Positions 9,500 to 64,000 of a stretch of 64,000 bases of DNA are shown here, in pieces (the first letter of the stretch is position 1; each line of letters begins with the position of its first letter). A program made the translations under genes and the position numbers. Source of the DNA: SAR202 cluster bacterium bin22 (GTDB lineage: Bacteria; Chloroflexota; Dehalococcoidia; Lucifugimonadales; UBA3495); the NCBI GenBank assembly GCA_002238505.1, contig MPMM01000004.1, positions 1 through 64,000 of the forward strand, given 5' to 3'. Below the pieces are notes generated by a model. That model saw only the letters and a program-made list of their open reading frames with translations, was not told where the DNA came from and searched no databases.

Positions 9500-9525
9500 G
9501 CTCCAAGGCTAGTGAGGTAACCCGA

Positions 9526-34681: not shown

Positions 34682-34859
34682 TGCGACACCTCTCTTCTGT
34701 GGAAGATGGAAGGGCCTCCAGGGCTGGTTCTGGAGACTTTATAAATCACTTTAGAGATGGGTCATCGGAGGTGACAAGAAGCAACTTTCAGTGGGATTGG
34801 AAATAAGAGATGACTGTGGACTTCAGGTGTGGGCGGTTTACTCCTTGGAGTCTAGCGGT

Positions 34860-38731: not shown

Positions 38732-40372
38732 TGTCAACGCTGTCGATGTCCAGCGAAAACGTCCGGTTAAGTGCTCAGGGAAAATGTCCATTGGTCTTGT
38801 CCTGAGTGGCTAAGTAAGCGGCCCGTCTGGCAGTCCGGTTGACGGGTGGAGCTATCAGGTCCAGGTACTTCCTGACCGTGTTTCGGGAAAAACCCAGGTC
38901 CCTGGCGATGCCTCGAAGGGATACACCCTGGAGCCTGGCGTGGTGAACGGCTTTCCTGAGGGCCTGCTTGCGCGGGGTACCCTCCCGGGCGGTGGAGCAT
39001 CGGGTCTGCGGGGTTCGGCGTCCTCCGGGCGCTGGGGGACAGCTGCTTCCAGGGCAGCCAGGCGCTGAAGCTGCAATCTGGTGAGGCCGCGCCGTGCCAG
39101 GTTCCTGACCACGTGTGCCATCTCCGGGGTGGGCGCCTGGGCGCCATTGGAAGCTCTCAAAGCGCCGGGCCTGGGCGGAGCTTCCTGGTGGGGAATCACT
39201 TCACCACCGGACCGGACCATGAGCTGGCCACCACTTTGCTCCAGGACCTCCACCCTGGCACCGGCATAGCTGGGCCGTTCCTCACCAGGAAGCAACTGCA
39301 GGGTGCGCCACTGGAACTTGATGGTGTTGTCCCGGGCCACCTGGCGGGTGTGCTTAAAGCAGAGGACGCGTTCCAGAAATACGGATGCGTCCAGGGAACG
39401 GTAGGCCACCTTAGGCTGCTGGGCCGGTACGCGGAACTGCCTGTTGAACTGGGGCAGGAATTCTTGCAACACAGCGTTGGCCTGGTCAATGGTGACGGCG
39501 CCCGCCAGCCTGAGTTCGCTGACCAGCCAGTCCTGGAAGGTGCCGGCCATACGCTCTACCCGACCCTTGGCCTGGGGTGAGCGGGCGAAGACCTGCTCAA
39601 TGCCCAGTTCCTGCACTGCCCGGCTGAAGTGGGTGGCTTCCACCGGCGGCTGGATGTGGCGGGGCTTTCCGGCAAACTTGAAGACCCCGTGGCGATCGCC
39701 ATAGAGGGCCAGGGGGAGTCCATAGCGGCGGATCACACCTTCCATCAGCAGGAAGTAGCCCCGGGTGTCCTCCCCGGTCTGGAATACGGCGTTGGCGACT
39801 GTGCCGGTGGCATCATCCACGGCCAGCAGCAGGACGAACCCAGGTCCCCGTTCCTCCAGCCAGGCATGGTGGCTCTGGTCGATCTGCAGGAGCATACCCT
39901 CCTGGGGCATCCGCTCCCGCCGTATCCGGTGTTTGGGAGGACGGTGCCGGCTGGCGCTGGACAGACCGTGGCGGTTGAGGAGACGGCTTACCGTCTGGCT
40001 GCTCAGGTGAATGCCTTCCCGTTCCGCCAGCACCTCACTCAGGTGGCTGTGGTTGAAGCCGGCGTACTTTCCGCTGGCCAGCACGACCACCGCGGAGGCC
40101 GTCTCTTCGGGAATGGTGTTGCGGGACTGGCGGCCTCGGTTGCCGTGGACCAGTGCGGCGGCCCCTTCCCTCCGGTAGGCCGCCAGGATGCGCCGGACCT
40201 GGCGTTCACTGATCCCCAGAACTTCGGCAGCCTGGGTTGTGGGCAGCTGATATTCCAACACGCTGTTGAGTACCTGGAGTCTGGCTTGCTCTCTTTGGTT
40301 CAATGTTACGTCCTTCATAGAAGGACATTTTCCTTGAGCAATTTACTCGGACACAATCATAGAGCGTTGACA
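38732..40372 (-). mobile_element. Insertion element with 10-bp plus internal inverted repeats
   Basis: The left end reads TGTCAACGCTGTCGATGTCC, and the right end, read inward on the minus strand, reads TGTCAACGCTCTATGATTGT. Further in, both carry a version of TGCTCA-(G/A)GGAAAATGTCC (left 38773-38789). The element of 1641 bases holds one transposase gene. On the left it interrupts another transposase after SDRIC; on the right its edge touches the stop codon of the gene at 40373. No target duplication is evident. I assign it to the ISNCY-like group only tentatively. Confidence 0.75.
38775..40318 (-). pseudogene. DDE transposase, copy 2 (C-terminal frameshift)
   Basis: The N-terminus is intact: MKDVTLNQREQARLQVLNSV, then a helix-turn-helix TTQAAEVLGISERQVRRIL. 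The rve-type core has Asp in LLQIDQSHH, Asp in ALYGDRHG and Glu in GRVERMAGT. In the C-terminal region the frame is lost near 39000-39010: the called frame continues with low-complexity Pro/Arg residues to 38855, while the expected second helix-turn-helix (VSLRGIARDLGFSRNTVRKY) and the end KTNGHFP are in another frame, stopping at 38775. One indel therefore separates the catalytic domain from its C-terminal domain. It may be inactive, or the indel may be a sequence error. Confidence 0.85.
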
Positions 40373-46760: not shown

Positions 46761-49229
46761 CTAATGTAGGGTTGTAACGTCCGGGACGCCGTTTACTGGC
46801 GCGTCCACTGGAGCGATTATTCCGCCTGTCCCGAGGTTTTTCTTGCGAAAGGTCCATGTGGAACCAGCTATTACTCTCCGTTGCTCCACTTCCAAGTCCT
46901 GGTTCAGGGGCTCAAGGAGGTTGTTCAACTGGCGGCCCAAAGCCGTCGGATTTTGGGCTGAGAGTGTGGTGCCGGTTTCACTGCTGATGGTCCTCAACTC
47001 TGCGAACAAGTTCTTGGTTTGGATTGTGCGTCCGTAGTTTGAGCCTAGACTGCTACCGTCCGGGCTCCCGGAATTACAGTTGTTGCCTTCCAGCCAGGCC
47101 CACAAAAGGGTCACAAGATTATTTTCTTCAATAGCGAATTTATGCTGTGACTGACGAATACGCCATACGGCTCTGTCCGTTATCCCTTTGACCTCTGGGC
47201 CCAAGCCCATGGCAATGCGAGTAGCAACTCTAAAGAAGTCGGCTATTCGGACTTCAGGGTCGGCGACCTCAACAGACTTTAATGGAACGGCAAGGGTCTT
47301 TTGTACCATTCTGGCATATTCCGACATTAGCTCACTGCGGGAATTTTCGATTTCCTCCTGGATGTCGAACTCGGGCCGCTTGCTCTTGAGGCGACCCAGG
47401 TTAAACAATAGAGCGCGGTCTGCAACGTCATCTCTGCGTAAGGAACCTGTGGGTGTTCTCGCGGTTAAAGCTAGCATGCAAGAGACCTTAATGCGATGCA
47501 GTCGAGCGTTTGTATGGAGGTGGCGCTTGCTCCTTCGCACTCCGGTCGCCACTTGAGCCAATGCGTCAGGAAGATATGAGATGTTGCGATCGACATTGTC
47601 ATAACACACCAGAAAAGAATGAAAGGCGTTTATCCAGAAGTCTTCCTCTCCTCTCTGTTGCTGCAACAGGGAATCGACCTCAAAATTTGGTCCGATGAGC
47701 ATGTGTCCACATGACCGGAACATGGTTGTCTTTCCGCTCCCGGCCGGCCCGAGGGCCACTGCCAAAACCTTGGTGGGCATCATCGACTCAAAGGCCATGC
47801 TCAGCAGCCAGAGAAGCAGGAGAGTCTGTTGCTGTTGAGTGTCCAGGATTGAATCCGTTTGGGAGAAATTTACTGGGCCGATGATTAGTTCCTCGATACG
47901 TCCCGTGTCATCGCTGCTACTGTATGTCCAAGCTGAGTGGTCCACCATCGTCGAAAACAGTACACCGTCTTCTCCGTTGCCTCTTACTTCAATGCCGTCT
48001 ACGGAAATCTTGAGAACGTTTCCTGAACCCATGTCCAAGTAAACGAGGTTCTGGTTGTGGTCATAGTAGGAAAACTGCCTGAGAATGGCTGGCTTCCCCC
48101 TGGCTTGAGCCTCCACCAACATTTGCTGGAATAAGTAAGCGAATAACGGGTCTCTCTTGTTGAGTCCGTATTTGTCCGAAAGAAGGACAAGAAGGCCTAG
48201 ATCATTTTCGTCTAGAGGCATCAATGTGTGTTCGTCGCGGTCAAAAAAGAACAACCCTTCGCCACCACCGTTCACGAAGAAACCATGAGATTTAAACTCT
48301 GCAATCATCTTCTTGCAAAATTCTCCATATTTTCCTATCTGTCGGCTGGAGGCATTAAGCTCGGAACTGTTGACCTCATCTTGAATAACTGGTTCATACT
48401 CTGGTGATGAATCGAAGAGTTCGACCAGGTTGACAAGTTTATTGCCCTGGTCCAGCCAATCGCTCACGTCGCCCTTTTCCTTCAGGTCCGGTAGATACAG
48501 CATCCTGACCTGTGCTGCTTTTCCCATCAGGCTGGTAGCGACTTGGTTGGCGTGGGAAAGACCTGCTTCGTCATTGTCGGGAATTACCGCCACCCGGCGG
48601 CCTAGGAAGAAGTTCGAGTAATTCTTTCTCCATTTGCCAGCGCCTCCAGGATTGGTAGTTGCTACTACCCCTTCCGCCGCCAAACGGTCGGCGTCTTTCT
48701 CGCCCTCAACAATACAAACCAATTCATTGGGGTCTGACTTCGAGAGTTCCGGCAAGCGGTACGGCATTCTGGCCAGCCCTCTTGTGTCCCATATCCATTG
48801 GCCAGGGTTGGCAGGGTCGGGCCTGCGTTGCCGGAAACCCTTCTTCCCGCCTGGGCCGGGTTGCAGCCTAACCACCTGGAAAATTAGTTTTCCCTCGGAG
48901 TCTCGATAGTTGTACACGGCCTCGGGTTCAACTGAACGGCCTGCAGGTGACCGTTCAGGGAGGAGGATTCCCCATTCCTTGGCCAGATTCTCGACTCCAT
49001 TGAATCCGCACCTAAAGCATTTCACAAGACTCTTCTTAATGCTTATTCTTAGATTGGGGTTGCCACCTTCCCTGTCGGGGTGGCCGGGGCAATACGCCAC
49101 CGCGTCTGCCCCCGATTCTCCGGGTTGTTTTACGACGTCAGGGTGGCGGAGTATTTCTTTGAGGAGGCGCTGTCGCCTATCTTGGTTTTCTCGGGCAACC
49201 GGGTTAAAATTGTTTATCATCGTTAGCAC
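46761..49229 (-). CDS. Bifunctional primase-helicase of phage/plasmid type
   Basis: An 822-residue replication protein. Residues about 45-77 form a CHC2 zinc-binding domain: YCPGHPDREGG, then LVKCFRCGFNG. A TOPRIM primase core follows: LVCIVEGEKDADRLAAEG (Glu, about 168-185) and VAVIPDNDEAG (D-x-D, about 213). After a linker comes an AAA+ helicase-like domain: LAVALGPAGSGKTTMF (Walker A, about 492), LVCYDNVDRN (Walker B region), then SCMLALTARTP and DRALLFNLG (arginine-finger region). This order is that of phage and plasmid primase-helicases rather than chromosomal DnaG. The gene runs leftwards from a divergent control region shared with the repressor. Its stop codon overlaps an iteron-like repeat. 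Confidence 0.85.
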   Translation of the reverse strand: MLTMINNFNPVARENQDRRQRLLKEILRHPDVVKQPGESGADAVAYCPGHPDREGGNPNLRISIKKSLVKCFRCGFNGVENLAKEWGILLPERSPAGRSVEPEAVYNYRDSEGKLIFQVVRLQPGPGGKKGFRQRRPDPANPGQWIWDTRGLARMPYRLPELSKSDPNELVCIVEGEKDADRLAAEGVVATTNPGGAGKWRKNYSNFFLGRRVAVIPDNDEAGLSHANQVATSLMGKAAQVRMLYLPDLKEKGDVSDWLDQGNKLVNLVELFDSSPEYEPVIQDEVNSSELNASSRQIGKYGEFCKKMIAEFKSHGFFVNGGGEGLFFFDRDEHTLMPLDENDLGLLVLLSDKYGLNKRDPLFAYLFQQMLVEAQARGKPAILRQFSYYDHNQNLVYLDMGSGNVLKISVDGIEVRGNGEDGVLFSTMVDHSAWTYSSSDDTGRIEELIIGPVNFSQTDSILDTQQQQTLLLLWLLSMAFESMMPTKVLAVALGPAGSGKTTMFRSCGHMLIGPNFEVDSLLQQQRGEEDFWINAFHSFLVCYDNVDRNISYLPDALAQVATGVRRSKRHLHTNARLHRIKVSCMLALTARTPTGSLRRDDVADRALLFNLGRLKSKRPEFDIQEEIENSRSELMSEYARMVQKTLAVPLKSVEVADPEVRIADFFRVATRIAMGLGPEVKGITDRAVWRIRQSQHKFAIEENNLVTLLWAWLEGNNCNSGSPDGSSLGSNYGRTIQTKNLFAELRTISSETGTTLSAQNPTALGRQLNNLLEPLNQDLEVEQRRVIAGSTWTFRKKNLGTGGIIAPVDAPVNGVPDVTTLH

Positions 49230-49809: not shown

Positions 49810-49833
49810 AGCTTAACAACATTGCGTCAAGTA

Positions 49834-50523
49834 ATGCTTCTAGACTCTGTACAGGAATTTTTTGTGGTGTTAGGCGAAAGGTTGGCCACAGTTAGAAAGG
49901 AACTGGGCATTTCCCAAGTGAGCCTTGCGGCCGCAATGGGTAAGAACTATACCCAAAGCATGATTTCGAATGTTGAGAGCGGCAGAAGAGGTCTATTGGC
50001 GGAGGGGTTGGCCCAGGCGTCCCGCGTGTTGGGGGTTTCAGTTGACTATTTACTTGGGCTGACCGACAACCCAAGTCAGTTACCAGTTGTGAAAATAGAA
50101 GAAGCTGACGATGCTTACAAGGTGGTGGATATCCCGGAGCTCTCGGGAATCATTTCACCCAGCGCCATATTGGACGCTAACGTAAGCCGAAAGGTTGCGT
50201 TCCCCAGGAAGTGGCTCGTTGAAATGGAGGTAGACCCTGCAGACTGTTTCCTAGTAAGGTTCCAGGATGACTCCATGCTTCCAACCCTTCCCGTGGATTG
50301 CAGACTCTTGGTGGACCGGGGCAGCCAACTGCCAGCCGACAAGAAACTGTGCTTGCTTGACTCTGTGGAGGGTGTGGTTGTCAAGCGTGTGCACCGACAC
50401 GAAGACCTGGGCTGGGTGCTAAGGAGCGATAATCGGGTTTACGGTGCGGTTCCCCTGGATGAGACCCTCCGAATCGTCGGTGAAATCAAGTGGTATGACG
50501 CCGCCTCCTGGTGGCGATTCTGA
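49834..50523 (+). CDS. CI/LexA-like repressor (XRE helix-turn-helix plus S24 domain)
   Basis: A 229-residue repressor of the lambda-CI type. Residues about 10-70 are an XRE helix-turn-helix: LATVRKELGISQVSLAAAMG, then SMISNVESGRRG. The C-terminal S24 (LexA-like) domain has the nucleophile Ser in FQDDSMLPTL and the general-base Lys in GVVVKRV, so the self-cleavage dyad is there. A clear Ala-Gly cleavage site is not seen; the linker has ELSG. Such repressors keep prophages or integrative elements silent and are inactivated during the SOS response. It is divergent from the primase. Start uncertain: ATG at 49834 has no ribosome binding site, while a GTG about ten codons later follows AGGA. Confidence 0.85.
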   Translation: MLLDSVQEFFVVLGERLATVRKELGISQVSLAAAMGKNYTQSMISNVESGRRGLLAEGLAQASRVLGVSVDYLLGLTDNPSQLPVVKIEEADDAYKVVDIPELSGIISPSAILDANVSRKVAFPRKWLVEMEVDPADCFLVRFQDDSMLPTLPVDCRLLVDRGSQLPADKKLCLLDSVEGVVVKRVHRHEDLGWVLRSDNRVYGAVPLDETLRIVGEIKWYDAASWWRF

Positions 50524-50534
50524 CCTCGGTCTTA
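50522..50534. repeat. 13-bp inverted copy of tRNA segment
   Basis: GACCTCGGTCTTA, overlapping the repressor stop codon, is the exact reverse complement of TAAGACCGAGGTC at 50615-50627 inside the tRNA-Ile fragment. The short word CCATTTTGTA is also repeated, directly, at 50561-50570 and 50653-50662. Confidence 0.6.
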
Positions 50535-50607
50535 ACTCAAAAAAGGAGGAAAAGCACCCCCCATTTTGTATCCGAAAACCGGCGATTTAGCTTGGTTTTT
50601 TTGGGGC

Positions 50608-50655
50608 GTCCTGATAAGACCGAGGTCGTTGGTTCGAGTCCATCCAGGCCCACCA
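50608..50655 (+). tRNA. 3' half of tRNA-Ile(GAT): attachment-site remnant
   Basis: The sequence begins with the anticodon stem-loop (GTC-CTGATAA-GAC, anticodon GAT), continues with a variable region GAGGTCG, the T arm GTTGGTTCGAGTCCATC and the acceptor end AGGCCCA with encoded CCA. The 5' half (acceptor strand, D arm) is absent; the sequence before 50608 is unrelated. A bare tRNA 3' half is what integration of a mobile element into a tRNA gene leaves at the distal end. Confidence 0.8.
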
Positions 50656-50946
50656 TTTTGTACTAAAGACTGAACAGTCTCTGGCTTCTGGCGCGGCACG
50701 TCGCGCCATCCGATGCCTTCATGCGCCCCCTTCCTTGTCCGCTGCCCCTGCCTCGTCTGTCTAGAGTGGCAGGCGTACCCGGGTGACCGCCTGGGCCCAA
50801 CTCCTGCCAACACGGCTCATATTTCTGTGCCGGACCCTTCCCTACATAACGTCGTCGAAATCACAGGATGATGTTAGTTTTCTGGGTAGCATATGCTAGC
50901 GAAGACTGGGGAAGCGACAGCGCATCGCTGCCACGATATTTCGGCT

Positions 50947-51063
50947 CAGTACCCGGGCAGACAGGCCGCCGACCGGAGCGCCGTGGCCAGGTATTACCAG
51001 GAGAGCCAGAGGTCAAAACCCGACTGTCCCCATCACCCTGCCTACCCGCCCCGGCGCCTGTAA
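50947..51063 (+). pseudogene. Tyrosine recombinase C-terminal remnant (third copy)
   Basis: The frame reads YPGRQAADRSAVARYYQESQ and then a short tail to a stop at 51061. It matches the last 20 residues of the recombinase tails at 5.2 and 22.3 kb (RQAADRGAGARYYQ, RQAADRGAVARYYQE). All catalytic motifs upstream are lost. It lies 290 bases to the right of the tRNA-Ile fragment, and its 3' end overlaps the convergent netrin-like gene. Confidence 0.75.
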
Positions 51064-51689
51064 ATCAGCAGCCCTCCCCCAGCCGCCGCCGCTGCAACCA
51101 GGGCAACAACAGTGAGCAGCCACACATTCCTTCCGTTCAAAAGCTCCCTATCCTGCCCACGAAATACGGTTCCCTTCCCCGGAGGACTCCCTTCCCCCAG
51201 GGCATCCAGGTCTTCTGCGGCATTGTTCACCAGGTTGGTCCGGCTGCAAATGCTGGTGGAATATCCGCCATCCCCGTACGAACTATCGTAGGCGTATACC
51301 ACGTACTCTTCCCCTTCCGCGAAAGCCACGCCACAGCTTCCCCCGGTGGGCGGCGTGGTAATCTTCAGGTTCCGATCAACGTCGCCCTTCCACACGGTGT
51401 TGACAGCGAACTCCACCGTGGTCCTGTCCTCGGCATTCAGTGCTGCGCTTCCCGGCTCAAAGGAGTGGTCCACCGAGACCACCTGCCCGGCAAATACTGC
51501 CGCATGACCCTCGAGTTCTTCTGCCGGCTTACCCGGCGGGACGCACGAACAGGCGTGGGCCGTCCCCACCCCGGACAGCGGCCAAAGCAGTACCACCGCT
51601 GCGGTCAGGATAAGGAATACGGCGAAAATGTCGGCGGTGCCTGAATGGGGCCTGCCGGATTCATTTGCTATTGTTCTGGCTGAAATCAT
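51042..51689 (-). CDS. Netrin/TIMP-like secreted protein with C-terminal membrane anchor
   Basis: A protein of about 215 residues. A hydrophobic signal (IFAVFLILTAAVVLLWPL) ends before AHACSCVPPGKPAEELEGHA, the typical opening of bacterial netrin/TIMP-like domains, with CSC directly after the signal. Then VFAGQVVSVD, FAVNTVWKGDVDRNLKI, TGGSCGVAFAEGEEYVVYAY and STSICSRTNLV show the paired Cys and beta strands of the OB-fold. A single C-terminal membrane helix VWLLTVVALVAAAAAGGGLL is followed by RRRGG, giving an extracellular domain anchored at its end. The domain's bacterial role is unknown. The ATG at 51689 is chosen for signal length; a GTG at 51770 is possible. Confidence 0.75.
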   Translation of the reverse strand: MISARTIANESGRPHSGTADIFAVFLILTAAVVLLWPLSGVGTAHACSCVPPGKPAEELEGHAAVFAGQVVSVDHSFEPGSAALNAEDRTTVEFAVNTVWKGDVDRNLKITTPPTGGSCGVAFAEGEEYVVYAYDSSYGDGGYSTSICSRTNLVNNAAEDLDALGEGSPPGKGTVFRGQDRELLNGRNVWLLTVVALVAAAAAGGGLLIYRRRGG

Positions 51690-51791
51690 GGCCGTCTTTA
51701 TTGAGACTTGCAGCGTACCAGGGCAAATCACAAAGAAACGATATATGCAATTGATGACTTGGCCCTTCACACAAGAATTAATGTATGGTGA

Positions 51792-52079
51792 AGTGTAACA
51801 TCAGGGTGTTCCGACATAGGAGAGTCTCAAGAGAACGAATCTCACGACCACGGAACCGATGCCGGCCACAACCACGATGCCCACGCCGGGCACGTGCTCA
51901 CCGACGCCGCGGCCATAGCCATGGTCTTGGTGGCCATCTGGATTGCCGAGAAGGCTGCCTCCGCCGTGCCTACCTTCGGCTGCTATCGCACCTGGGTACT
52001 GGCCGCCCTGGCCAACCTCTTCTCCTTATGGCTGATCGCCGGGGCCTCTCCCGGAAAAGGGCGGGAGTGGCTGCGCTAG
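51792..52079 (+). pseudogene. Cation diffusion facilitator (CzcD-like) N-terminal fragment
   Basis: The frame contains a His-rich start, SHDHGTDAGHNHDAHAGH, followed by VLTDAAAIAMVLVAIWIAE and PTFGCYRTWVLAALANLFSL. This matches the N-terminal region of zinc/cadmium efflux transporters of the CDF family: His-rich cytoplasmic leader, then H-x-x-x-D in the second transmembrane segment and 'fGy-x-R-x-EvLaAL-x-N' before the third. Family members have about 300 residues and six membrane segments; here a stop follows after the third segment. No start codon is available in frame after the stop at 51789. It is a remnant. Confidence 0.75.
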
Positions 52080-52253
52080 AAACGGTGGCGGCTGGGGAAC
52101 CTGAAGGCCAGGCTGGAATGCCTGGAAGGTAAAGCCAGCGTTTTACTTAATGGGACTATACGTTATTCACCGTCGAGGCAAAGGTGGGTGATAGGGGCGC
52201 AGATTGTGCTATACCAACGCAACGTCACCAACTAGAAAATAAGGGGATAAAGA

Positions 52254-52517
52254 ATGACTGAAAACACTTACGGAACTAGCACTTACAGATTCCAGAGACC
52301 AGACCTGCCCCACATGGAAATAGCCGGAGAATTGAAGTCTGATGAACCCATTTCCCACATCGACGCTGCGATTGGTTTTCTTTCTGGTGCGGACCAAGCC
52401 TTAAGATTAGAGCATCAATGCTGCGCTCCTCGCGGTGAACGAGCGGAAAAAGTAGCGGAACTGCTGGTGAAGGCACGAGAAATTCGACACATCCTTGAGA
52501 GCTTTCCGGTGGAATAG
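52254..52517 (+). CDS. Hypothetical 87-residue protein
   Basis: A small soluble protein starting MTENTYGTSTYRFQRPDL behind AAGGGGATAAAGA. The middle is acidic, with ELKSDEPISHIDAAIGFLSG. The second half is helical, with EHQCCAPRGERAEKVAELLV and a Lys/Glu-rich end. The Cys pair could bind metal or simply be structural. No family is recognised and there are no partners on the same strand. Codon use looks normal and the ribosome binding site is good, so the gene is probably real. Confidence 0.5.
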   Translation: MTENTYGTSTYRFQRPDLPHMEIAGELKSDEPISHIDAAIGFLSGADQALRLEHQCCAPRGERAEKVAELLVKAREIRHILESFPVE

Positions 52518-52999
52518 ACCTACGCGTATCGCACCGCCAAAACCGCAGGGGCTTAGCTGTACCGCTGGGGGACTCTTACGTGGGAGACATGACCGAGTTA
52601 CGACCATTTCAAAAACGATGGCGGTCATCATCAGAGTCGAAAACGAATACATTCCGTCACCCCCGATTACGCCAGAATTCCCAAGCCCACCCAGGTGCTG
52701 GACTGACCCCGCCCGGACCATACCCTACAACCTGAACCTAGCTGTGGGAAAGCCAGCCCGAGCTTCGCGGCAATCGCGTCCTCGTTCAATGTCATTCTGA
52801 GCGGAGTCGAAGAATCTGAACTCTGTCCCACAAGCCGAGTTTCGTATTGCGAAGCGAGCCTGGGGGAATGTTTTCAGGGCCTTTGGCAAGCTCAGGGCGA
52901 CATTCTTACTTGCTGTGGGCTCCTGCGTATCTTGCTATAGCGGCCTGCGCAATTCACGGCCAAGTTCAAACGCGATGGCCCTCCCACGTCAACATAAAA
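52518..52999. other. Intergenic stretch with a REP-like repeat
   Basis: About 480 bases without a gene. It includes CATTCTGAGCGGAGTCGAAG (from about 52792) and CTTTGGCAAGCTCAGGGCGA (from about 52881). I recall both as fragments of short repeats scattered widely in environmental bacterial genomes. Their role is unknown. Confidence 0.45.
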
Positions 53000-53028
53000 T
53001 TGACCCTGTTCGTAACCATTACTATAAT
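53000..53028 (+). promoter_or_regulatory. Consensus sigma-70 promoter of comD-comE
   Basis: TTGACC (53000-53005), a 17-base spacer, and a perfect TATAAT (53023-53028). The expected start is about 53035, leaving a leader of about 80 bases before comD. It is the best promoter match I found in the window. Confidence 0.75.
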
Positions 53029-53113
53029 GCCCGCAATACTGGGCTGAAACGTAAGTTAACGCTGGCGCCGTAAACCCGACATTCAGGTCAGGACACAGGC
53101 AAGGAGGATTCTC

Positions 53114-53632
53114 ATGGTTGAGCAGCAGGCAGCAGTACTGAGCCCCGAGGCCCTGGTGGAAGAATTCAAGAAGAATGGCGTCACCCACGTGGTGACCATC
53201 CCCGACAGCGAGACCAACTACCTGTACGAGTTGATGCAGGAGCAGCCCTGGCTGGACGTGGTTCCGGCCTCCCGGGAGGGCGAGACCTTCGCCATTGCCC
53301 TGGGTTTGATTATCGGCGGCCAGACCCCGGTGTGCCTGATACAGAATACGGGCATGATGGAGTCCGGCGACTCCATTCGCGGCATGGCCCTGGATTCCGG
53401 ATTCCCCCTCGTAATGGTGATTGGGTACCGGGGCTGGAACCGGCACGGCGTTATCACCGACTCAGTCGCCCGCTATACCGAGCCCTTCCTCAACGCATTC
53501 CGAATTAATTATTACCTGGTTGAACAGGACGCCGACAGCCACAGAATCTCGGTCGCCTTCGAAGAGGCCAAGAACACCAAGCGGCCGGTGGCCATCCTGG
53601 TAGGCGACGAATACCACGGCTTCAATCGCTAA
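53114..53632 (+). CDS. comD: Sulfopyruvate/phosphonopyruvate-decarboxylase-type alpha subunit
   Basis: A 172-residue subunit of a split thiamine-diphosphate decarboxylase (ComD-like). It is the Pyr domain: GVTHVVTIPDSETNYLYEL (residues about 22-40), then PASREGETFAIALGLIIGG, where Glu in REGE is the residue that activates the cofactor, then CLIQNTGMMESGDSIRGM and FPLVMVIGYRGWNRHG, a typical substrate-pocket loop. Sulfopyruvate decarboxylase turns sulfopyruvate into sulfoacetaldehyde, in coenzyme M synthesis or sulfonate breakdown; related enzymes act on phosphonopyruvate. Without coenzyme M genes nearby I favour sulfonate or phosphonate metabolism. The ATG at 53114 lies behind AAGGAGG. The beta subunit follows after 113 bases. 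Confidence 0.8.
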   Translation: MVEQQAAVLSPEALVEEFKKNGVTHVVTIPDSETNYLYELMQEQPWLDVVPASREGETFAIALGLIIGGQTPVCLIQNTGMMESGDSIRGMALDSGFPLVMVIGYRGWNRHGVITDSVARYTEPFLNAFRINYYLVEQDADSHRISVAFEEAKNTKRPVAILVGDEYHGFNR

Positions 53633-53644
53633 ATACCATTACAA

Positions 53645-53699
53645 CTCCGGAGAGCCTGGTTCGCCGGCGGGACGCCGGGGCGCGGGGCGTCGTCCGGAG
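53645..53699. promoter_or_regulatory. GC-rich hairpin between comD and comE
   Basis: CTCCGGA and TCCGGAG form the base of a GC-rich structure with further internal pairing (GCCGGCGG, CGCCGGGG). There is no T-run, so it probably stabilises the mRNA or separates translation of the two subunits. Confidence 0.45.
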
Positions 53700-53745
53700 C
53701 CAAAACGATTCACATGAACAAGGATTTGCAAAACGGAGGCGATGA

Positions 53746-54336
53746 ATGATTCAGTCATCGGACATATTCCGAGTATTCAAGGACCACCGGGGTGACGCCA
53801 TCGTAATCCCCACCGGCACCTCGGGTCGCCACTGGCGGGAATTTACCCAGAACGAGACCCGGGATCTGAACCTGGGCGGCGCCATGGGTCACACTACTTC
53901 GGCTGCCCTGGGGCTAGCCCTGGGACTGCCCAACGAGAAGGTTGTGCTCTTCGACTCTGAAGGCGCGCTGCTGATGAACCTGGGCATCCTGGCTACCATC
54001 GCCGGCAAGCAGCCGAGCAATTTCTGCCACATTCTGCTGGACAACGAGTGCTACGCCACCACCGGCGGGCAGCCCGTGCCCAACGCCCAGGAGATCAACT
54101 ACGCCGGAGTAGCCAAGGAAGCCGGCTATTCCGCCGCCTACAGCTTCGACGACCTTGAGGAATTCGCTACCAACATCGAGCAGATTATGAACGAGTCCGG
54201 TCCGGTGTTTGTTGCCATAAAGGTGGTCCCCGAAGTGGAAAACGAGCCCATCGGCATGCGCCAGCGTGCGCCCTCCCGCAGCCGGGCCGAGACCATCCGC
54301 GACCTGCAGGGAGAGCTGGGCATCAGCGCCGGCTAA
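53746..54336 (+). CDS. comE: Sulfopyruvate/phosphonopyruvate-decarboxylase-type beta subunit
   Basis: A 196-residue subunit (ComE-like), the cofactor-binding PP domain. DLNLGGAMGHTTSAALGLAL (residues about 45-64) is the usual loop before the diphosphate site; VVLFDSEGALLMNLGILATI (about 67-86) is the motif that normally reads D-G-D-G-S; the Gly-Asp-Gly core is here Ser-Glu-Gly. ILLDNECYATTGGQP supplies the Asn of the Mg-binding site and the typical STGGQ-like end. With ComD it forms a hetero-oligomer that decarboxylates a 2-oxo acid with a sulfonate or phosphonate group. A strong terminator lies 40 bases after the stop, so comDE are a two-gene operon. Confidence 0.8.
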   Translation: MIQSSDIFRVFKDHRGDAIVIPTGTSGRHWREFTQNETRDLNLGGAMGHTTSAALGLALGLPNEKVVLFDSEGALLMNLGILATIAGKQPSNFCHILLDNECYATTGGQPVPNAQEINYAGVAKEAGYSAAYSFDDLEEFATNIEQIMNESGPVFVAIKVVPEVENEPIGMRQRAPSRSRAETIRDLQGELGISAG

Positions 54337-54375
54337 GGCCATCACCCAAACCATTAACCCGCACCAGGAATTGTG

Positions 54376-54416
54376 AGCCGGACGGTTGGCGGAAACCCAA
54401 CAGTCCGGCTTGTTTT
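54376..54416 (+). terminator. Rho-independent terminator after comE
   Basis: AGCCGGAC (54376-54383) and GTCCGGCT (54403-54410) pair, with a second inner GTTGG/CCAAC stem, followed by TGTTTT. It separates comDE from the urea transporter operon. Confidence 0.85.
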
Positions 54417-54732
54417 GGTTCCAGCCAGTCAGCCAGCCAACACCCGCGTCAGCGCTCAGGCTACGGCCCTCGCTGCAAGCTCGCTTCTCCTGACTCCTGC
54501 CGAGGCGCCGGTGGACGGGGGCTTGCCAGACCCTTACCCCCAACAGCGCCTGGAGGGTCCCTGCCAATCCGACGAGCTTTCAGTCCCCTGAAACATTTCG
54601 GACACATTGTTTTAACTTCTGTGTTACACCCTCGAAACCGCTGGGTAACAAACGGTGACTATCGTGTTCCTGTCGGCCCGGGACCGGTTTCCCAGACGGA
54701 CCGACGAACCAAATGTCAGGAGGAGTACCCCA

Positions 54733-56040
54733 ATGTCTGTCTCATATTTACCAAAGTCCCTTGGTACCTTCGCGTCTAACACCCTGAAACTGCTGGCTGG
54801 CCTGGGTCTCATCCTGGCCGTTGCCTGCGGCTCGGAAGCGCCCCCTGCGCCTGCCCCGACCTCCGCCGCCCCGGCCGCTGCCGCAGTAGAGCCCGCCCCC
54901 GCTGCTGAAGACTCCGGCACAATCAAGGTTGGCATACTCCACTCTCTCTCCGGCACCATGTCCATCAGCGAAACCGCTGTCCACGATGCCGAACTGCTGG
55001 CTATTGAGGAAATCAATGCCGCCGGCGGCGTTATGGGCAAGCAGCTTGAAGTAGTAATCGAAGACGGCGCCTCCGACTGGCCCACCTTTGCCGAGAAGGC
55101 CCGTAAGCTCTTGCAGGAAGACGAGGTGGCCGTAGTATTTGGCGGATGGACCAGCGCCAGCCGCAAGGCCATGCTGCCCGTGTTCGAAGCCAACAATGGG
55201 CTCCTCTTCTACCCGGTGCAGTATGAAGGGCTGGAAACCTCGCCCAACATCTTCTACACCGGCGCTACCACCAACCAGCAGATCGTACCTGCGGTGGAAT
55301 ACCTGATCGAAGAAGGCAAGACCAAGTTCTACCTGCTGGGTTCCGACTACGTCTTCCCCCGCACGTCCAATCTGATCATTAACAAGCAGCTTGAGGCCGC
55401 TGGCCTGGAAGCCGTGGGCGAAGAGTACACGCCTCTTGGTCACACCGAGTACAGCACCGTCATTTCCAAGATCCGGGCCGCCGAACCCGACATCGTCTTC
55501 AATACCCTTAACGGCGACTCGAACGTAGCCTTCTTCAAGCAGCTTCGCGACGCGGGCATATCCGCCGAGGACCTGCCCACCATCTCCGTCAGCGTGGCTG
55601 AAGAGGAAATCACCGGTATCGGCGCAGACAACATCACCGACCACCTGGTGGCGTGGAACTACTTCCAGACCACCGACACCCCGGAGAACGCCAAGTTCGT
55701 CCAGGCTTTCCAGGCCAAGTACGGCGAAAACCGCGTCACCGACGACCCCATCGAGGCTGGCTACTTCGGCGTGTACCTCTGGAAGGCCGCCGTAGAGAAG
55801 GCGGTCAGCACCGACGTCGCCGCCGTCAAGGAAGCGGCCAAGGGGATCACCTTCGCGGCCCCGGGCGGCACGGTGACCATCCACAACGAGAACCAGCACG
55901 TGTCCAAGACCGTTCGCATCGGCAAGGTCCGCAGCGACGGCCAGATAGACGAGATCTGGAACTCCGGCTCGCCTGTTTCGCCTGACCCCTACCTGGACAG
56001 CTACGAGTGGGCTTCCGGCCTCCGCGAACTGGCCCAGTAA
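54733..56040 (+). CDS. urtA: Urea ABC transporter substrate-binding lipoprotein
   Basis: A 435-residue periplasmic-type binding protein attached as a lipoprotein: hydrophobic signal [13 protein letters not shown], then an Ala/Pro-rich linker. The mature domain begins [20 protein letters not shown], then [32 protein letters not shown] and [20 protein letters not shown], the signature of UrtA within the branched-chain amino-acid binding-protein family. It would deliver urea to UrtB/UrtC. The ATG at 54733 follows AGGAGG; the longer frame upstream has no lipoprotein signal start. A 10-bp perfect stem-loop lies between it and urtB and may raise urtA transcript levels relative to the rest. Confidence 0.93.
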
Positions 56041-56074
56041 GCGGTACAATCCCTTAACTTAAAGCCACATTGCA

Positions 56075-56122
56075 GGACTGCGGCAGAAGTGAGCCTTCAA
56101 TTCGGAAGGGCAGCCGCAGTCC
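56075..56122. promoter_or_regulatory. Stem-loop between urtA and urtB
   Basis: GGACTGCGGC (56075-56084) and GCCGCAGTCC (56113-56122) pair perfectly, with an inner CCTTC/GAAGG. No T-run follows. Such hairpins after binding-protein genes often block 3' decay or partly terminate transcription. Confidence 0.6.
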
Positions 56123-56150
56123 CCGCTTATCGGACACTTAAGCGAAAATT

Positions 56151-57047
56151 ATGGAAGTCTGGGCATCACAACTCTTCAATGGCCTAAGTCTTAGTTCGAT
56201 CCTGCTGCTCACCGCGCTGGGTCTGGCCCTTTCCTTCGGCCTGATGAACGTCATAAACCTGGCCCACGGCGAGTTCATCATGATCGGGGCCTACACCACC
56301 TACGCCCTGCAGCAGGTGGCGGCCCACTACACCGGTGATCCCCAGTCCGGAATTACCTTCCTGATTGCCATCCCCGCCTCTTTTATCATGTCCGCCGCCG
56401 CCGGTTACCTGGTCGAAGTCACGGTAATTCGCTTCCTTTACCGCCGCCCGCTGGACACCTTGCTGGCGACCTGGGGCGTGGGGCTGTTCCTGCAGCAGTT
56501 GGCCCGTTCCATTTTTGGCGCCCCCAACGTGCAGGTGGTGGCTCCTGCCTGGCTCAGTTCCACCGTTTCCATCACCTCCAACCTGCTGTTGCCCATGAAG
56601 CGCATCTTCATCATCGGACTGGTACTCGCCTGCCTGGGCGCCCTTTACCTGTACATGTACCGCTCTAACGAGGGTCGCCGCATGCGGGGCGTGATGCAGA
56701 ATCGGGAGATGGCTTCCAGCCTCGGAGTGTCCACTCGCCGGGTGGACAGCTTTACGTTCGCCCTGGGCTCCGGCCTGGCGGGTGTCGCCGGATGCGCCCT
56801 GACCCTGATCGGCCCCATCGGTCCGTCCCTGGGCACCTTCTACATCGTGGACGCCTTTATCGTCGTCATCCTGGGTGGACTGGGACAAATACCGGGCACC
56901 ATCATGGCGGCGCTGATCATCGGCATACTTAATACGCTCTTCGAGTTTGGCACCACCGCCGTTGTGGGCAAGGTGCTGGTCTTCGCCATGGTGATTCTCT
57001 TCCTGCAGTGGAAGCCGGCCGGCCTGATGCGGGCGCGGGGCAGGTAA
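56151..57047 (+). CDS. urtB: Urea ABC transporter permease UrtB
   Basis: A 298-residue LivH-type permease. It has about eight hydrophobic segments, starting [20 protein letters not shown], followed by the conserved [20 protein letters not shown] (residues about 35-54). [20 protein letters not shown] is typical of UrtB. The coupling loop is [20 protein letters not shown], and the end has [18 protein letters not shown]. It sits in the cytoplasmic membrane and with UrtC forms the urea channel. It belongs to the urtABCDE operon on the plus strand. Start ATG at 56151 has only a weak ribosome binding site. Length is normal for the family. Confidence 0.93.
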
Positions 57048-57055
57048 GGAAGCCA

Positions 57056-58198
57056 ATGGCCTCAAGAATATCCATACCCAACGCAATCAAGGGACTTCCC
57101 CTGCCCTCGTGGCTTGGCGACCTGGCTTCGGTATGGCTGGCGCCGGTCCTGGTGCTGGCGGCCCTGCTGGTCGCGCCCCTGTTGCTGTCCGATTTTCGCG
57201 TGGCCCTGCTGGGCAAGTTCCTCACCTTTGCCATCCTGGCCATGTCCCTGAACCTCATCTGGGGCTACGCCGGTATGTTGAGCCTGGGGCACGGCGTATT
57301 CTTCGGCCTGGGCGGGTACGCCATGGCCATGTTCCTTAAGCTGGAGTCGGCCAACGGCAAACTCCCCGATTTCATGTTCTGGAGCGGCCTGACTGAATTG
57401 CCCTTCTTCTGGGCCCCCTTTGAATATGCCTGGTTTGCCATTCCCATGACCTTTATCGTTCCGGCGGCCATTGCCGGCGGATTGGGGTACCTGGTGTTTC
57501 GCAGCCGCATTACCGGCGTATATTTCGCCCTGATAACCCAGGCCCTCGCGTTGATTGTCAGCATCCTGTTCATTGGCCAGCAGCCTTACACCGGCGGCAC
57601 CAACGGAATCACCAACTACACCACCATCTTTGGTTTTGCCATCAATTCGCCAGCAACCCAGGTTGTCCTGTACTATGCCACTCTGGCGACGCTGGCGCTG
57701 ACTTATCTCTTGTGCGCCTGGCTCATCGCCTCCCGCTTTGGTCGGCTGCTTGTGGCCATGCGGGACGACGAGAACCGGGTCCGGTTCTCCGGCTACAATC
57801 CTGCCGCCCTGAAGACCATCGTATTCGCCCTTTCGGCCGGAATAGCCGGAATAGCCGGCGCCCTGTTTACGCCCCAGGTCGGCATCATTTCGCCCACCAT
57901 GATGGGAATCGTGCCGTCCATTGAAGTTGCCATCTGGGTTGCGGTCGGCGGACGGGGCGTTCTGCTGGGGGCCATCGTGGGCGCCATCCTCGTAAACGGG
58001 GCCAAGAGCGGGCTGAGCGAGTCCTTCCCCGCCATCTGGCAGTATTTCCTCGGCCTGCTGTTCATCGGCGCGGTGCTGGTATTTCCTTCGGGGATTATGG
58101 GCCTGCTGCGGGGCGAGGGCTGGCGGCGGCCGGAGTGGTTTTCCACCAGTCATTTGCCAGGGTTCGCGGCCCGGGTGCTGCCAGGAGTGAAGAAATGA
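57056..58198 (+). CDS. urtC: Urea ABC transporter permease UrtC
   Basis: A 380-residue LivM-type permease, partner of UrtB. Hydrophobic segments alternate with [20 protein letters not shown] (residues about 63-82), the hallmark G-x-x-SLGHG motif. Later come [18 protein letters not shown], the cytoplasmic coupling segment [19 protein letters not shown] and [20 protein letters not shown]. The larger size and the [13 protein letters not shown] segment near the end agree with UrtC. The ATG at 57056 is chosen because AAGGAAG lies just before it; the longer frame starts inside urtB. Its stop overlaps urtD by four bases (ATGA). Confidence 0.93.
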
Positions 58199-59076
58199 TC
58201 GGACGCAGGGCCAGGCAGTTGTTCCAGACGGCCTCTTCCCACGCCTCCAACGGGTCGGGTGCTGGAACCCCCGCCGAGAAGACAATTCTATCCGTCGAAA
58301 AACTGACCATCAGTTTTGACGGCTTTACCGTCCTGAACGAACTGGACTTCAGCATGAATTACGGGGAAATGCGGTTTTTGATTGGCCCCAACGGCGCAGG
58401 CAAGACCACCCTGATTGACTCCATAACCGGCAAGTCCAAACCCGACCGGGGGAGGATAGTCTTTGATGGCGGGACCGACCTGACGCGCCAGCAGGAACAC
58501 CGCCTCGTCCGGTTGGGCATTGGCCGCAAGTTCCAGACGCCCTCCATCTTTGGCAGCCTGACCGTGTTCCAGAATCTGGAAGTTGCCCTGGGGTTCCGCA
58601 ACCGCATCACCAGCCTGTTTGGCGGCGTTCGCCGCCAGGACTCGGACCGCATCATGGCGACGCTGGAGGAAGTGGCCCTGGTTGACCGCGCCTCCGAGGT
58701 TGCCGGGTCCCTGTCCCACGGCGAGAAGCAATGGCTGGAAATTGGCATGCTGCTGGTCCAGGAACCCAAGCTGCTGTTGATGGACGAACCGGTCGCCGGA
58801 ATGACGCGACGTGAACGGGAAAAAACGGGCGAACTGCTCCAGTCCATCGGCAGTTCCCGCTCCGTCCTGGTGGTGGAGCATGATATGGAATTTGTCAGGC
58901 GCTTTGCCGAGACCGTAACCGTGCTGCACCTGGGCAAGGTGCTGAGCGAAGGCGACATGGAAACGGTCCAGCGTGACCCGGAGGTAATTCGCGCCTACCT
59001 GGGCCACGGCGCCTCGGGAAACCGTACCGTAGCGGAATCAACCCGGCCCAGGCAGGGAGCGGCCGCCGGCGTCTGA
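58195..59076 (+). CDS. urtD: Urea ABC transporter ATP-binding protein UrtD
   Basis: A 293-residue ABC ATPase. After a roughly 30-residue N-terminal extension it shows [14 protein letters not shown], Walker [12 protein letters not shown] (about 65-75), signature [14 protein letters not shown] (about 175), Walker [12 protein letters not shown], and the switch His in VVEHDMEFV. The [13 protein letters not shown] form of the signature is characteristic of UrtD. It supplies energy for urea import together with UrtE, on the inner face of the membrane. The start overlaps the urtC stop, so it is translationally coupled. The C-terminal tail [12 protein letters not shown] is extra compared with most relatives. 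Confidence 0.93.
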
Positions 59077-59095
59077 TGCGCCGGGGTAAAGGCAT

Positions 59096-59815
59096 ATGAG
59101 ATACCAGGAACCACTACTGACAATTCGCGACCTGACGGTGGGCTACGGCCAGAGCATGGTGTTAAACGACGTTGCCCTGGACGTTTCACAGGGTCAGGTG
59201 GTCTGTCTCCTGGGTCGTAACGGCGTGGGCAAAACCACGCTGATGAAGGCAGTAATGGGCCAGCTAAGTCCCCGCGCCGGCCAGTTAGTGTTCGCCCAGT
59301 CGGACATGACCAGGTGGCCGCCCCACCGGCGGGCGAAGGCGGGCTTTGGCTACGTGCCCCAGGGCCGCCACGTTTTTCCTTACCTGTCGGTCCACGACAA
59401 CCTGCTGATGGGGCTGGAGGCGGCGGACGGGACCGAGGCCCGGAGCGTTGCCCTGGACCGGATGTACGACCTGTTCCCCGCCCTCAAGACCTTCCAGCGA
59501 AAGGTGGCCGGGACCCTCAGCGGCGGCCAGCAACAGCAGCTTGCCCTGGCCAGGGCCCTCGTGCGCCGGCCATCCCTGCTCCTGCTGGACGAACCCACCG
59601 AGGGTATCCAGCCCTCCATCGTCCAGGAAATCCAGGAACTCCTGCATAGGCTCCGTGACCAGCAGGATACGACCATCCTGTTGGTGGAACAGTTCCTGGA
59701 CTTTGCCCTGGGCCTGGCGGACTACTGTTACGTAATGGAGAAAGGGTCCATCGTCCTCGAAGGAACTGCCCGGGACCTGGACCAGAACCTGGTTCGGGAG
59801 TATGTATCGGTCTAG
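59096..59815 (+). CDS. urtE: Urea ABC transporter ATP-binding protein UrtE
   Basis: A 239-residue ABC ATPase of the LivF type. LTIRDLTVGYGQSMVLNDVA opens the domain; Walker A is LLGRNGVGKTTLMKAVMG (residues about 40-57), the Q-loop region reads GFGYVPQGRHVFPYLSVHDN, the signature is LSGGQQQQLALARALV and Walker B is LLLDEPTEGIQPSI. The switch His position is Glu-Gln in LVEQFLDFA, normal for this subfamily. It pairs with UrtD. The ATG lies 19 bases after the urtD stop. The last gene of the transporter, it is followed by glutamine synthetase after 100 bases. Confidence 0.93.
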   Translation: MRYQEPLLTIRDLTVGYGQSMVLNDVALDVSQGQVVCLLGRNGVGKTTLMKAVMGQLSPRAGQLVFAQSDMTRWPPHRRAKAGFGYVPQGRHVFPYLSVHDNLLMGLEAADGTEARSVALDRMYDLFPALKTFQRKVAGTLSGGQQQQLALARALVRRPSLLLLDEPTEGIQPSIVQEIQELLHRLRDQQDTTILLVEQFLDFALGLADYCYVMEKGSIVLEGTARDLDQNLVREYVSV

Positions 59816-59915
59816 GGAATGGCGTGGGCCAGAAATAAAACAACTATTGGATTATCCACCAGTGGGGTATCCGGGTAATCAAGCGGCAACTAGAGAAAAA
59901 ATTAGGGGATTTGCA

Positions 59916-61253
59916 ATGACCACCGAATCAACAACTCAACGGGATGAGGTTCTGCGGTTGGCCCACGAGGCCGACGTCAAGTTTATTCGCCTGTGGTTCA
60001 CCGATATTCTGGGCCACCTCAAGGGCTTCGCCATAACCGTTAACGACCTGGAAGAGGCCCTGGACCGGGGCGTGGGGTTTGACGGGTCCGCCATTGACGG
60101 CTTTGCCCGCCACCACGAAAGCGATATGCGGGCCTACCCCGACCCCTCCACTTTCACCCTGCTCCCCTGGCGTCCCCGCCAGAATGCCGTGGCCCGAATG
60201 TTCTGCGACATCCGGCACCAGCGGGGCCAGACTTTCCTCGGCGACCCACGCTACGTTCTCAAGCGCAACCTGGAAAAGGCCGAGGCGCTGGGGTACACCT
60301 ACAACGTCGGCGCCGAGCTGGAGTTCTTCTACCTCCAGAACTCCCACACTCCCGAACTGCTGGACTCCAACGGTTACTTCGACCAGCTTTCCAGCTATCC
60401 AGCCACGGAACTGCGCCGCGATACGGTGCTGCATCTGGGCGAAATGGGCATACCCGTCAAGTACTCCCACCACGAAGGCGCCCCCAGCCAGCACGAGATT
60501 GACCTGGAGTACACCAACGCGCTGACCATGGCGGACAACATTCTCACGGCCAAGCTGGTGGTGAAGGAACTGGCCCTGCTGCAGAACGTCTATGCCACCT
60601 TCATGCCCAAGCCCGTTTCCGGCATTAACGGTTCCGGCCTGCACCTGCACCAGTCTCTGTTCCGCGACGAGACCAACGGCTTCTTCGACCCCGACGACGA
60701 ACAGTATCTGTCCCAGTTGGGCAAGAAGTTCATCGCCGGCCTGATTGCCCACGCCCCGGAAATAACCCTGGTCACCAACCAGTGGGTAAATTCCTACAAG
60801 CGGCTGATTCCCGGCTTTGAAGCCCCCATTTATGTGTCGTGGACCCACGTCAACCGCTCCGATCTGATACGGGTTCCCACCTACGAACCGGGTACGGAAA
60901 CCTCCCTGCGAATCGAATACCGGTCCCCCGACCCCGCCTGCAATCCCTACCTGGCATTCAGCGTGATGCTGGCTGCGGGGCTGAAGGGAATCGAGGATGA
61001 CTACCAGATCCCGCCTCCGGTGGTTGGCAACGTGCTGGAAATGTCCCCCCAGCGCCGCCAGTCCCTGGGCCTGAAGACCCTGCCCACCAGCCTGGGAGAG
61101 GCCATTAGCCTGGCTGAGAGCAGCGAGTTGATGTACGAGTCCCTGGGTGATCACGTCTTCAACAGCCTGATAGCAAACAAGCAGATGGAGTGGGAAGACT
61201 ACCGCTCCCAGGTAACCGATTACGAAGTGTCGCGCTACCTCTCCACCCTTTAG
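59916..61253 (+). CDS. glnA: Glutamine synthetase, type I
   Basis: A 445-residue GSI enzyme that joins ammonia to glutamate using [21 protein letters not shown] (residues about 22-39) and [12 protein letters not shown] (about 50-61) are the N-terminal beta-grasp signatures. GAELEFFYL holds metal-binding Glu residues, [13 protein letters not shown] the next ones; [11 protein letters not shown] has the metal-binding His, and [13 protein letters not shown] and [17 protein letters not shown] the glutamate and ATP sites. The C-terminal adenylylation Tyr motif (NLYDLPPE) is absent, so it belongs to the non-adenylylated (alpha-like) group. The ATG at 59916 matches the family N-terminus. Its position between urea transport and urease means ammonia released from urea can be captured directly. 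Confidence 0.92.
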
Positions 61254-61270
61254 GCGCGCTCCTGTGGGAT

Positions 61271-61295
61271 TCCTTCCCCCTGGATGGGGGAAGGA
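61271..61295. promoter_or_regulatory. Perfect 10-bp stem-loop between glnA and ureA
   Basis: TCCTTCCCCC, loop TGGAT, then GGGGGAAGGA. There is no T-run on either strand. It may be an mRNA-stabilising hairpin or a copy of a dispersed palindromic repeat; the neighbouring GGACAGGATGGGGG extends the resemblance to such repeats. Confidence 0.6.
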
Positions 61296-61374
61296 CAGGA
61301 TGGGGGTGAAATCTTGCTTGAAGCCCCCTTATGCCAGCGCCGGAAACAACCGCGGCCAATTCGGGAGTTGCCTT

Positions 61375-61677
61375 ATGATGCTCACCCCCCGGGAATCGGA
61401 AAAACTGATGGTGTACGTGGCGGCGGACTTGGCCCGGAGACGCCAGGGCCGGGGTCTCAAGCTCAACGTGCCCGAGTCGGTGGCCCTCATTACTGAAGCC
61501 ATTCTCGAATCGGCCAGGGACGGCCGCACCGTGGCCGAGGCCATGGAACTGGGCCGCCAGGTACTCACCCGCGATGATGTGATGGAGGGCGTCCCCGAAA
61601 TGGTGGACCTGGTCCAGGTCGAGGCCACCTTTCCCGATGGCACCAAGCTGGTGTCCGTTCACGACCCCATAGTCTGA
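61375..61677 (+). CDS. ureA: Urease gamma subunit
   Basis: A 100-residue Ure[21 protein letters not shown], then [20 protein letters not shown] (residues about 26-45), [20 protein letters not shown] and [20 protein letters not shown] reproduce the family over its whole length, ending VSVHDPIV. It is the small structural subunit of the UreABC trimer-of-trimers; it carries no active-site residues. The ATG at 61375 (or the one next to it) gives the standard N-terminus; the longer upstream frame is not part of the protein. ureB follows after 22 bases. Confidence 0.95.
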
Positions 61678-61699
61678 AGGCCAGGAGTCTCGCTTCACC

Positions 61700-62107
61700 A
61701 TGAGCAATCCATCCGGTTTCTATATCCCAGCCGCCGACCCCATAGAAATAAACCCCGGCCGGCCCACCCTCTCCTTGCTCGTCTGGAACACCGGGGACCG
61801 GGCGATTCAGGTGGGCTCCCACTTCCATTTCTTTGAAGTCAACCGGGCCCTGAGCTTCCATCGGGAAGCAGCCTACGGCATGCGCCTGGACATCCCCGCC
61901 GGCACAGCGGTCAGATTCGAGCCCGGGGACCGCAAGGAAGTAACCCTGGTGGCAGTGGGTGGAACCCGGCGCATCCTGGGGCTCAACGGCCTGACCTCCG
62001 GCAGCCTGGATTCGCCCGACGTCCGCAACCGGGCGCTGGCAGAAATGCAGAGCAGGGCCTTTGCCCACATTCCTTCCGAAGAAACCGGCAGCCAGGGAGA
62101 CAGCTAG
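61700..62107 (+). CDS. ureB: Urease beta subunit
   Basis: A 135-residue UreB. The conserved parts are [20 protein letters not shown] (residues about 18-37), [20 protein letters not shown] (about 38-57), [20 protein letters not shown] and [20 protein letters not shown]. It is slightly longer than the usual 100-110 residues because of a polar C-terminal tail after GLTSG. It forms part of the urease core and holds no catalytic residue. It lies between ureA and ureC, one base before the ureC start codon, so the three subunits are made from one message as separate proteins. Confidence 0.95.
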
Positions 62108-62108
62108 T

Positions 62109-63827: not shown

Positions 63828-63843
63828 GGGGCTGAATCCGCCC

Positions 63844-64000
63844 ATGTTTGACGACTCGCCACAGGGCTTTCTAGCCCTCTTGCAACTGGCCGATTCCTTT
63901 TTCCCCACCGGGGCCTACGCCCAGTCCCAGGGCTTGGAAGGGATGGTAGCCCAGGGCTGGGTCTCCGGCGCCGATGAGGTTCTCGAGTACCTGTCTAACC
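63844..64000 (+). CDS. ureF: Urease accessory protein UreF, partial
   Basis: The first 52 residues of UreF, cut by the window edge. FLALLQLADSFFPTGAYAQS followed by QGLEGMVAQGWV is the conserved N-terminal region of the family (LLQLaDS-x-FP-x-Gaf-x-x-S-x-GLE). UreF works with UreD/H and UreG to load nickel into apo-urease. It follows ureC directly, with no ureE between them, so the metallochaperone UreE is either elsewhere or missing. The ATG at 63844 lies seven bases after GGGGGCT, a weak ribosome binding site. Confidence 0.9.
   Translation, partial: MFDDSPQGFLALLQLADSFFPTGAYAQSQGLEGMVAQGWVSGADEVLEYLSN

Follow-up and report, generated by a model that had tools for sequence, protein, structure and literature searches.

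Genomic islands that integrate into tRNA genes (tDNAs) are well catalogued, with 3919 tDNA-integrated islands in the Islander collection, and attachment sites centred on the anticodon form one of the common classes (PMC4383910). Islands of this kind carry an intact tDNA, an integrase gene adjacent to it, and a terminal, not internal, fragment of the tRNA gene (PMC4383910), and all three are shared by the element described here from an uncultured SAR202-group Chloroflexota, in which the fragment is the 3' end through the CCA. Our analysis concerns the first 64 kb of contig C40 (hereafter the window) from a genome assembly of 4.39 Mb in 58 contigs (97% complete), all of which was searched. The evidence points with high confidence to positions 50608-50655 being attR, the distal end of an integrative island that entered the sole tRNA-Ile(GAT) gene of this genome.

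The attR core (50608-50655, plus strand; GTCCTGATAAGACCGAGGTCGTTGGTTCGAGTCCATCCAGGCCCACCA) covers the 3' portion of a tRNA-Ile(GAT) gene: it starts 3 bp ahead of the anticodon loop, ends with the encoded CCA and comprises the anticodon loop CTGATAA (GAT), the 3' anticodon stem, the T arm, the 3' acceptor strand and CCA. The 5' half is absent, and the 29 bases that precede the core in the intact tRNA-Ile are not present upstream of it. The initial annotation had described an orphan 3' half at this position, and the parts that can be read in the sequence, together with the failure of ARAGORN to detect a tRNA gene anywhere within the 64-kb window, confirm this; a permissive Rfam scan of positions 1-60000 likewise gave no further tRNA remnant. 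Across the whole genome the 48-bp core has exactly one other copy, located at C57:51903-51950 (48/48 identical, E = 2.8e-18), the next matches being tRNA-Met, Val, Ala and Arg genes with no more than 83% identity. Within the window, two other 13-bp matches to the core both fall in one duplicated coding segment. A repeat search also returned a 13-bp sequence (TAAGACCGAGGTC; 50522-50534, minus strand) that matches a portion of the core perfectly in inverted orientation; this copy lies 80 bases before the core and overlaps the stop codon of a repressor gene; it is possibly there by chance.

Since C40 begins at window base 1, the left side of the island was sought on another contig. The initial annotation had predicted an integrase beside an intact tRNA-Ile whose 3' end matches the fragment, and both were found on contig C57. 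The intact gene (C57:51874-51950), whose 3' part is the second copy of the core, is the single tRNA-Ile(GAT) gene of the genome, and it is followed after 57 bp by the start of a gene for a tyrosine recombinase of 353 amino acids (C57:52008-53069; Pfam Phage_integrase PF00589, 3.2e-21) in which the catalytic residues R, K, HxxR, W and Y, judged by eye, appear to be complete. The tRNA on C57 and the fragment in the window are both on the plus strand, an orientation compatible with an island between them, and the island side of C57 reaches the right end of that contig just as the island side of C40 reaches the left end of its own. The identical core, the adjacent integrase, the orientation and the positions at the contig ends thus support the view that an island ends at the orphan fragment.

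The integrase belongs to a group that is closely associated with tRNA genes. When it was considered together with its relatives at E<=1e-20, nine of the ten loci examined (this one included) adjoined a tRNA gene (tRNA-Ile, Glu, Gly, Val, Pro or Arg), and none of the ten weaker Xer-like matches did so. The near relatives of the source genome are SAR202-cluster and Chloroflexota/Dehalococcoidia MAGs, and the search of relatives' genomes gave integrase relatives that were 46-50% identical. A pattern search of GTDB contigs yielded no relatives of the integrase, and viral contigs contained none of the integrase, of the primase-like protein or of the HEAT-repeat protein discussed below. At three loci (L020, L023 and L024) integrase relatives occur at a tRNA-Val in the opposite orientation, with the 5' end of the tRNA facing the integrase, unlike the six other tRNA-adjacent integrase loci (Ile, Glu, Gly, Pro and Arg).

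A short motif that is independent of the tRNA core is common to both ends. The sequence ATTTTGTATCCGAAAACCG at window positions 50563-50581 (minus strand) corresponds to CGGTTTTCAGATACAAAAT at C57:51956-51974, the two copies being inverted relative to one another and complementary at 18 of 19 positions. Both copies are on the inner side of the cores, that on C57 sitting 5 bp inside its end, and the 64-kb window has a single occurrence of the motif, against 0.03 expected by shuffling. In the related genome G019 the motif recurs after the core, next to the closest relative of the integrase (approximately 50% identical), and a degenerate form is present beside a 46%-identical integrase at a tRNA-Glu. 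The two inverted 19-bp motifs are probably arm-type sites of the integrase at both ends of one element, and their presence on C57 and C40, independent of the tRNA core, argues that these two contigs carry the ends of the same element.

The arrangement is what would be expected if the 353-amino-acid recombinase had recombined an attP site that contained the last 48 bp of the tRNA gene with an identical attB. The crossover most likely occurred within the anticodon loop, since the block of identity starts at the stem of this loop and the stem-loop itself is symmetric (GGTC-CTGATAA-GACC). Integration would have restored an intact tRNA beside the integrase as attL on C57, leaving the original 3' half at the distal end as attR in the window. 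Present activity, like the position of the crossover, is inferred.

That the orphan fragment is a tRNA pseudogene or a chance similarity unrelated to integration can be set aside almost entirely. Apart from the lack of a physical connection between the contigs, nothing speaks for it, whereas the match is perfect over 48 bases (E = 2.8e-18), begins at the anticodon-stem boundary as is typical of att sites, and leads to an intact gene with an integrase beside it. A second alternative, namely that the fragment is an element end moved by rearrangement, or left by another integrase, and is no longer (or never was) in cis with the tRNA on C57, appears very improbable, but it seems to have a precedent in one relative. 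In G019 (CATOSP01) the one intact tRNA-Ile(GAT) is on contig C3 and three 3' halves are located on other contigs (C1:166009-166055, C2:1118760-1118806 and C2:1263898-1263944; loci L057-L060). In this family, then, an orphan half by itself is no proof of an intact tRNA nearby. In G002 and G003, moreover, the metabolic genes that here lie to the right of attR are found away from tRNA-Ile. One of the G019 halves forms a junction in which the core lies between a P4-type integrase and a homologue of the C57 integrase, and another also follows a P4-type integrase, so that at least two of the halves belong to P4-type integrase elements. The 19-bp motif, in contrast, belongs to the C57 type of integrase and is absent upstream of the displaced halves of G019. 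Here the core is perfectly identical, the orientation is right and the genome holds one tRNA and one orphan; this single pair and the shared end motif make ordinary integration, with attL on C57 and attR in the window, much the most likely reading in this genome.

Integration into tRNA-Ile recurs in this family: at least two types of tyrosine integrase, and probably a serine recombinase as well, use the gene as a hotspot. In G003, a genome of the same genus, a gene for a large serine recombinase (G003:C49:17832-19577, minus strand; positions 7833-9578 of locus L056) directly abuts the 3' end of tRNA-Ile, and its reading frame extends 58 bases into the tRNA. Related serine-recombinase copies occur at 66-70 kb of the same G003 contig and at 207-209 kb of contig C39 in the source genome. 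When the Islander islands were described in 2014, tyrosine recombinases were the only recombinases known to target tRNA genes (PMC4383910).

The two sides of the junction differ in content. Mobile, defence and broken genes to the left of the orphan and metabolic genes to the right were features of the initial annotation, and this description fits, with conserved metabolic genes beginning at about 53 kb. Between attR and the conserved chromosome lies a 2.3-kb stretch (50656-52985) which, in genome comparisons, is not shared with relatives except for short repeats. The metabolic chromosome that follows (52986-63857) encodes a TPP enzyme, a urea-type ABC transporter, GlnA and urease (Pfam), and from 52,986 rightward it is syntenic with genomes of the same genus at about 86-87% identity. 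An Rfam match to the 5' ureB sRNA (62260-62559, minus strand, 75.7 bits) is antisense to the urease alpha gene and probably reflects coding conservation and not an RNA.

A comparison with a close relative lacking the island had also been proposed. No empty attB came to light, either in a search of 39 relatives with the joined flanks or on inspection of the G003 locus. In G003, the closest genome with the same left flank of tRNA-Ile, this position is occupied by other mobile DNA: downstream of the tRNA, 83 kb of mostly unshared sequence, with several copies of a serine-recombinase element in it, extends to the end of the contig. An empty site is not among the Islander criteria, and the failure to find one does not count against an island.

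The part of the island within the window (1-50607) is made up of defence-type, mobile and broken genes, as identified with Pfam, PADLOC, NCBIfam and PHROGs. The last gene before attR (49822-50523, plus strand) encodes a CI/LexA-like repressor with an HTH domain and an S24 peptidase domain (Pfam PF00717 and PF01381; PHROG 4 transcriptional repressor, 8e-30), and to its left is a gene for a primase/helicase-like protein (46761-49229, minus strand; PHROG 239 DNA primase/helicase, 1.3e-22; NCBIfam NF005477, 5.9e-28, which is below that model's cut-off). Insertion sequences are represented by two ISNCY-family transposase genes, one at 38855-40318 (minus strand; NCBIfam NF033594, 2e-114) and a copy at 35083-36213 (plus strand; 2.2e-76) whose match starts at position 128 of the 368 in the same model, and by an IS21-type pair of IstB and transposase (6751-9128, minus strand; Pfam IstB_IS21, 1.8e-57; Mu-transpos_C_2, 6.7e-14; rve, 5.5e-07). 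A 640-bp inverted repeat with 85% identity (29094-29735 and 34160-34800, approximately 4.4 kb apart) also lies inside the island.

Defence functions form much of the remainder. The gene at 24327-25481 (minus strand) encodes a truncated defence helicase-nuclease, also termed a PDC-S37/Hhe protein, which matches solely the C-terminal quarter of PDC-S37 (PADLOC, 3.4e-112; profile positions 1081-1451 of 1550). The island further encodes a UvrD helicase, AAA/SMC-like ATPases related to the Lamassu, Ari and Septu models, HEPN proteins, a Cas4-like nuclease, a GmrSD C-terminal domain and a ParA-like protein. Similarity to a Mokosh (MkoA)-like helicase is split over two adjacent open reading frames (12346-13242 and 13315-15771), apparently an interrupted gene. 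A second tyrosine recombinase is encoded inside the island at 4256-5338 (plus strand; Pfam Phage_integrase, 3.2e-10; PHROG 1 integrase, 3.6e-18); it is unrelated to the integrase at attL, with no meaningful match between the two, and a search beside it for a second att site gave neither a tRNA remnant nor direct repeats of at least 18 bp. Pfam searches of the window and of the island part of C57 recognised no relaxase, type IV secretion, coupling protein, VirB4 or phage structural genes, and no capsid-redirecting or packaging genes were detected when the island proteins were compared with Pfam and part of them with PHROGs.

The length of the island depends on how the contigs are paired. C57 continues for 5.7 kb past the tRNA and breaks inside a minus-strand HEAT-repeat gene whose C-terminal part ends the contig, and the reading frame resumes in frame at window base 1, where the N-terminal end of such a gene (1-199, minus strand) is cut by the start of C40. 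Read across the two contigs, the gene lacks roughly 0.7 kb compared to an intact homologue in G002. The assembly has no physical join of C57 to C40; their direct connection appears to be the simplest pairing and would give an island of at least about 57 kb, including the approximately 0.7 kb missing from the HEAT gene.

The in-frame continuation was considered as decisive proof that C57 and C40 are adjacent, and was demoted when a paralogue of the HEAT gene, split between C7 and C21, proved to break at identical residues. At the break the end of C57 matches that of C7 exactly, as that of C40 matches that of C21, and within each pair the HEAT gene is 86-88% identical; breaks at the same residues are the signature of a collapsed repeat. 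The in-frame join of C57 to C40 is therefore ambiguous and compatible with adjacency, and G+C content does not separate the two possible pairings. Both HEAT copies (C57:57028-57642 with window 1-199, and C7:41844-42452 with C21:2-199) lie in defence-gene regions, and they may be points of recombination between defence modules.

If C57 were instead joined to C21 and C7 to C40 through the two HEAT copies, the island would reach at least 127 kb and would perhaps be a composite of several elements. We regard this larger island as possible but doubtful. In its favour are the matching contig ends, the presence of a second tyrosine recombinase inside the window, and the content of C21 (27.6 kb) and C7 (42.5 kb), which are full of defence genes and transposases and are rich in Shedu, GmrSD, AbiEii, AIPR and E2/ThiF/JAB genes. 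Against it, the end of C21 does not run naturally into the start of C7, which is a repeat shared with C16, and further unseen joins would be needed, so that the direct connection of C57 with C40 is simpler. An in-frame join of C21 to C7 was tried and rejected, as other copies of the gene at the end of C21 continue differently. The stronger proposal that one composite defence super-island, at least 127 kb long, occupies the tRNA-Ile site and spans C57, C21, C7 and C40, with the HEAT copies as recombination points between its modules, seems to us unlikely. The claim that an island of more than 50 kb ends at the orphan tRNA fragment thus stands as regards the end, which is supported by the core, the integrase and the end motif, and its length would be 57 kb if C57 joins C40 directly, or at least 127 kb with C21 and C7 between them.

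These data locate the two ends of a large mobile element, rich in defence genes, in the genome of a SAR202-group Chloroflexota, and name its integrase and the probable arm sites of that integrase. With both ends fixed, the defence systems of the window can be treated as mobile cargo and not as resident genes. The tRNA core has an identical copy in the single intact tRNA-Ile(GAT) gene, the integrase is adjacent to that gene, the orientation is correct and an end motif is shared.

Compared with the known classes of mobile element, the island resembles integrative and conjugative elements (ICEs) in its tRNA site, tyrosine recombinase, large cargo and ParA-like protein, but differs from them in that the proteins examined by Pfam include no relaxase, coupling protein or VirB4. 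With PICI- and P4-like satellites it shares an integrase, a CI-like repressor and a primase-like gene near the att site, and in a circular form its attP would have the integrase on one side and the CI-like repressor followed by the primase-like gene on the other. It differs from such satellites in that no packaging or capsid-redirecting gene was recognised and the cargo consists mostly of defence genes and insertion sequences; it is also far larger than typical phage satellites. Without a recognised relaxase, type IV secretion system or phage structural gene, the element is best called a tRNA-integrated genomic island with an attachment site in the anticodon loop and a satellite-like order of integrase, att, repressor and primase, and is assigned neither to the ICEs nor to the satellites. 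In the Islander islands (PMC4383910) the fragment lies downstream of the tRNA in the same orientation; here both are on the plus strand with compatible contig ends, on two contigs that the assembly leaves unjoined. The Islander length range of 2-200 kb compares with a minimum of about 57 kb here, or at least 127 kb with C21 and C7 included. Unlike the Islander islands, this one is interrupted by an assembly break, so that its end-to-end distance is a derived value, and its host is an uncultured member of the SAR202 group. The phenomenon is known and its mechanism is that of the textbooks; what is new is this member, its integrase, the probable arm motif and the possible larger composite.
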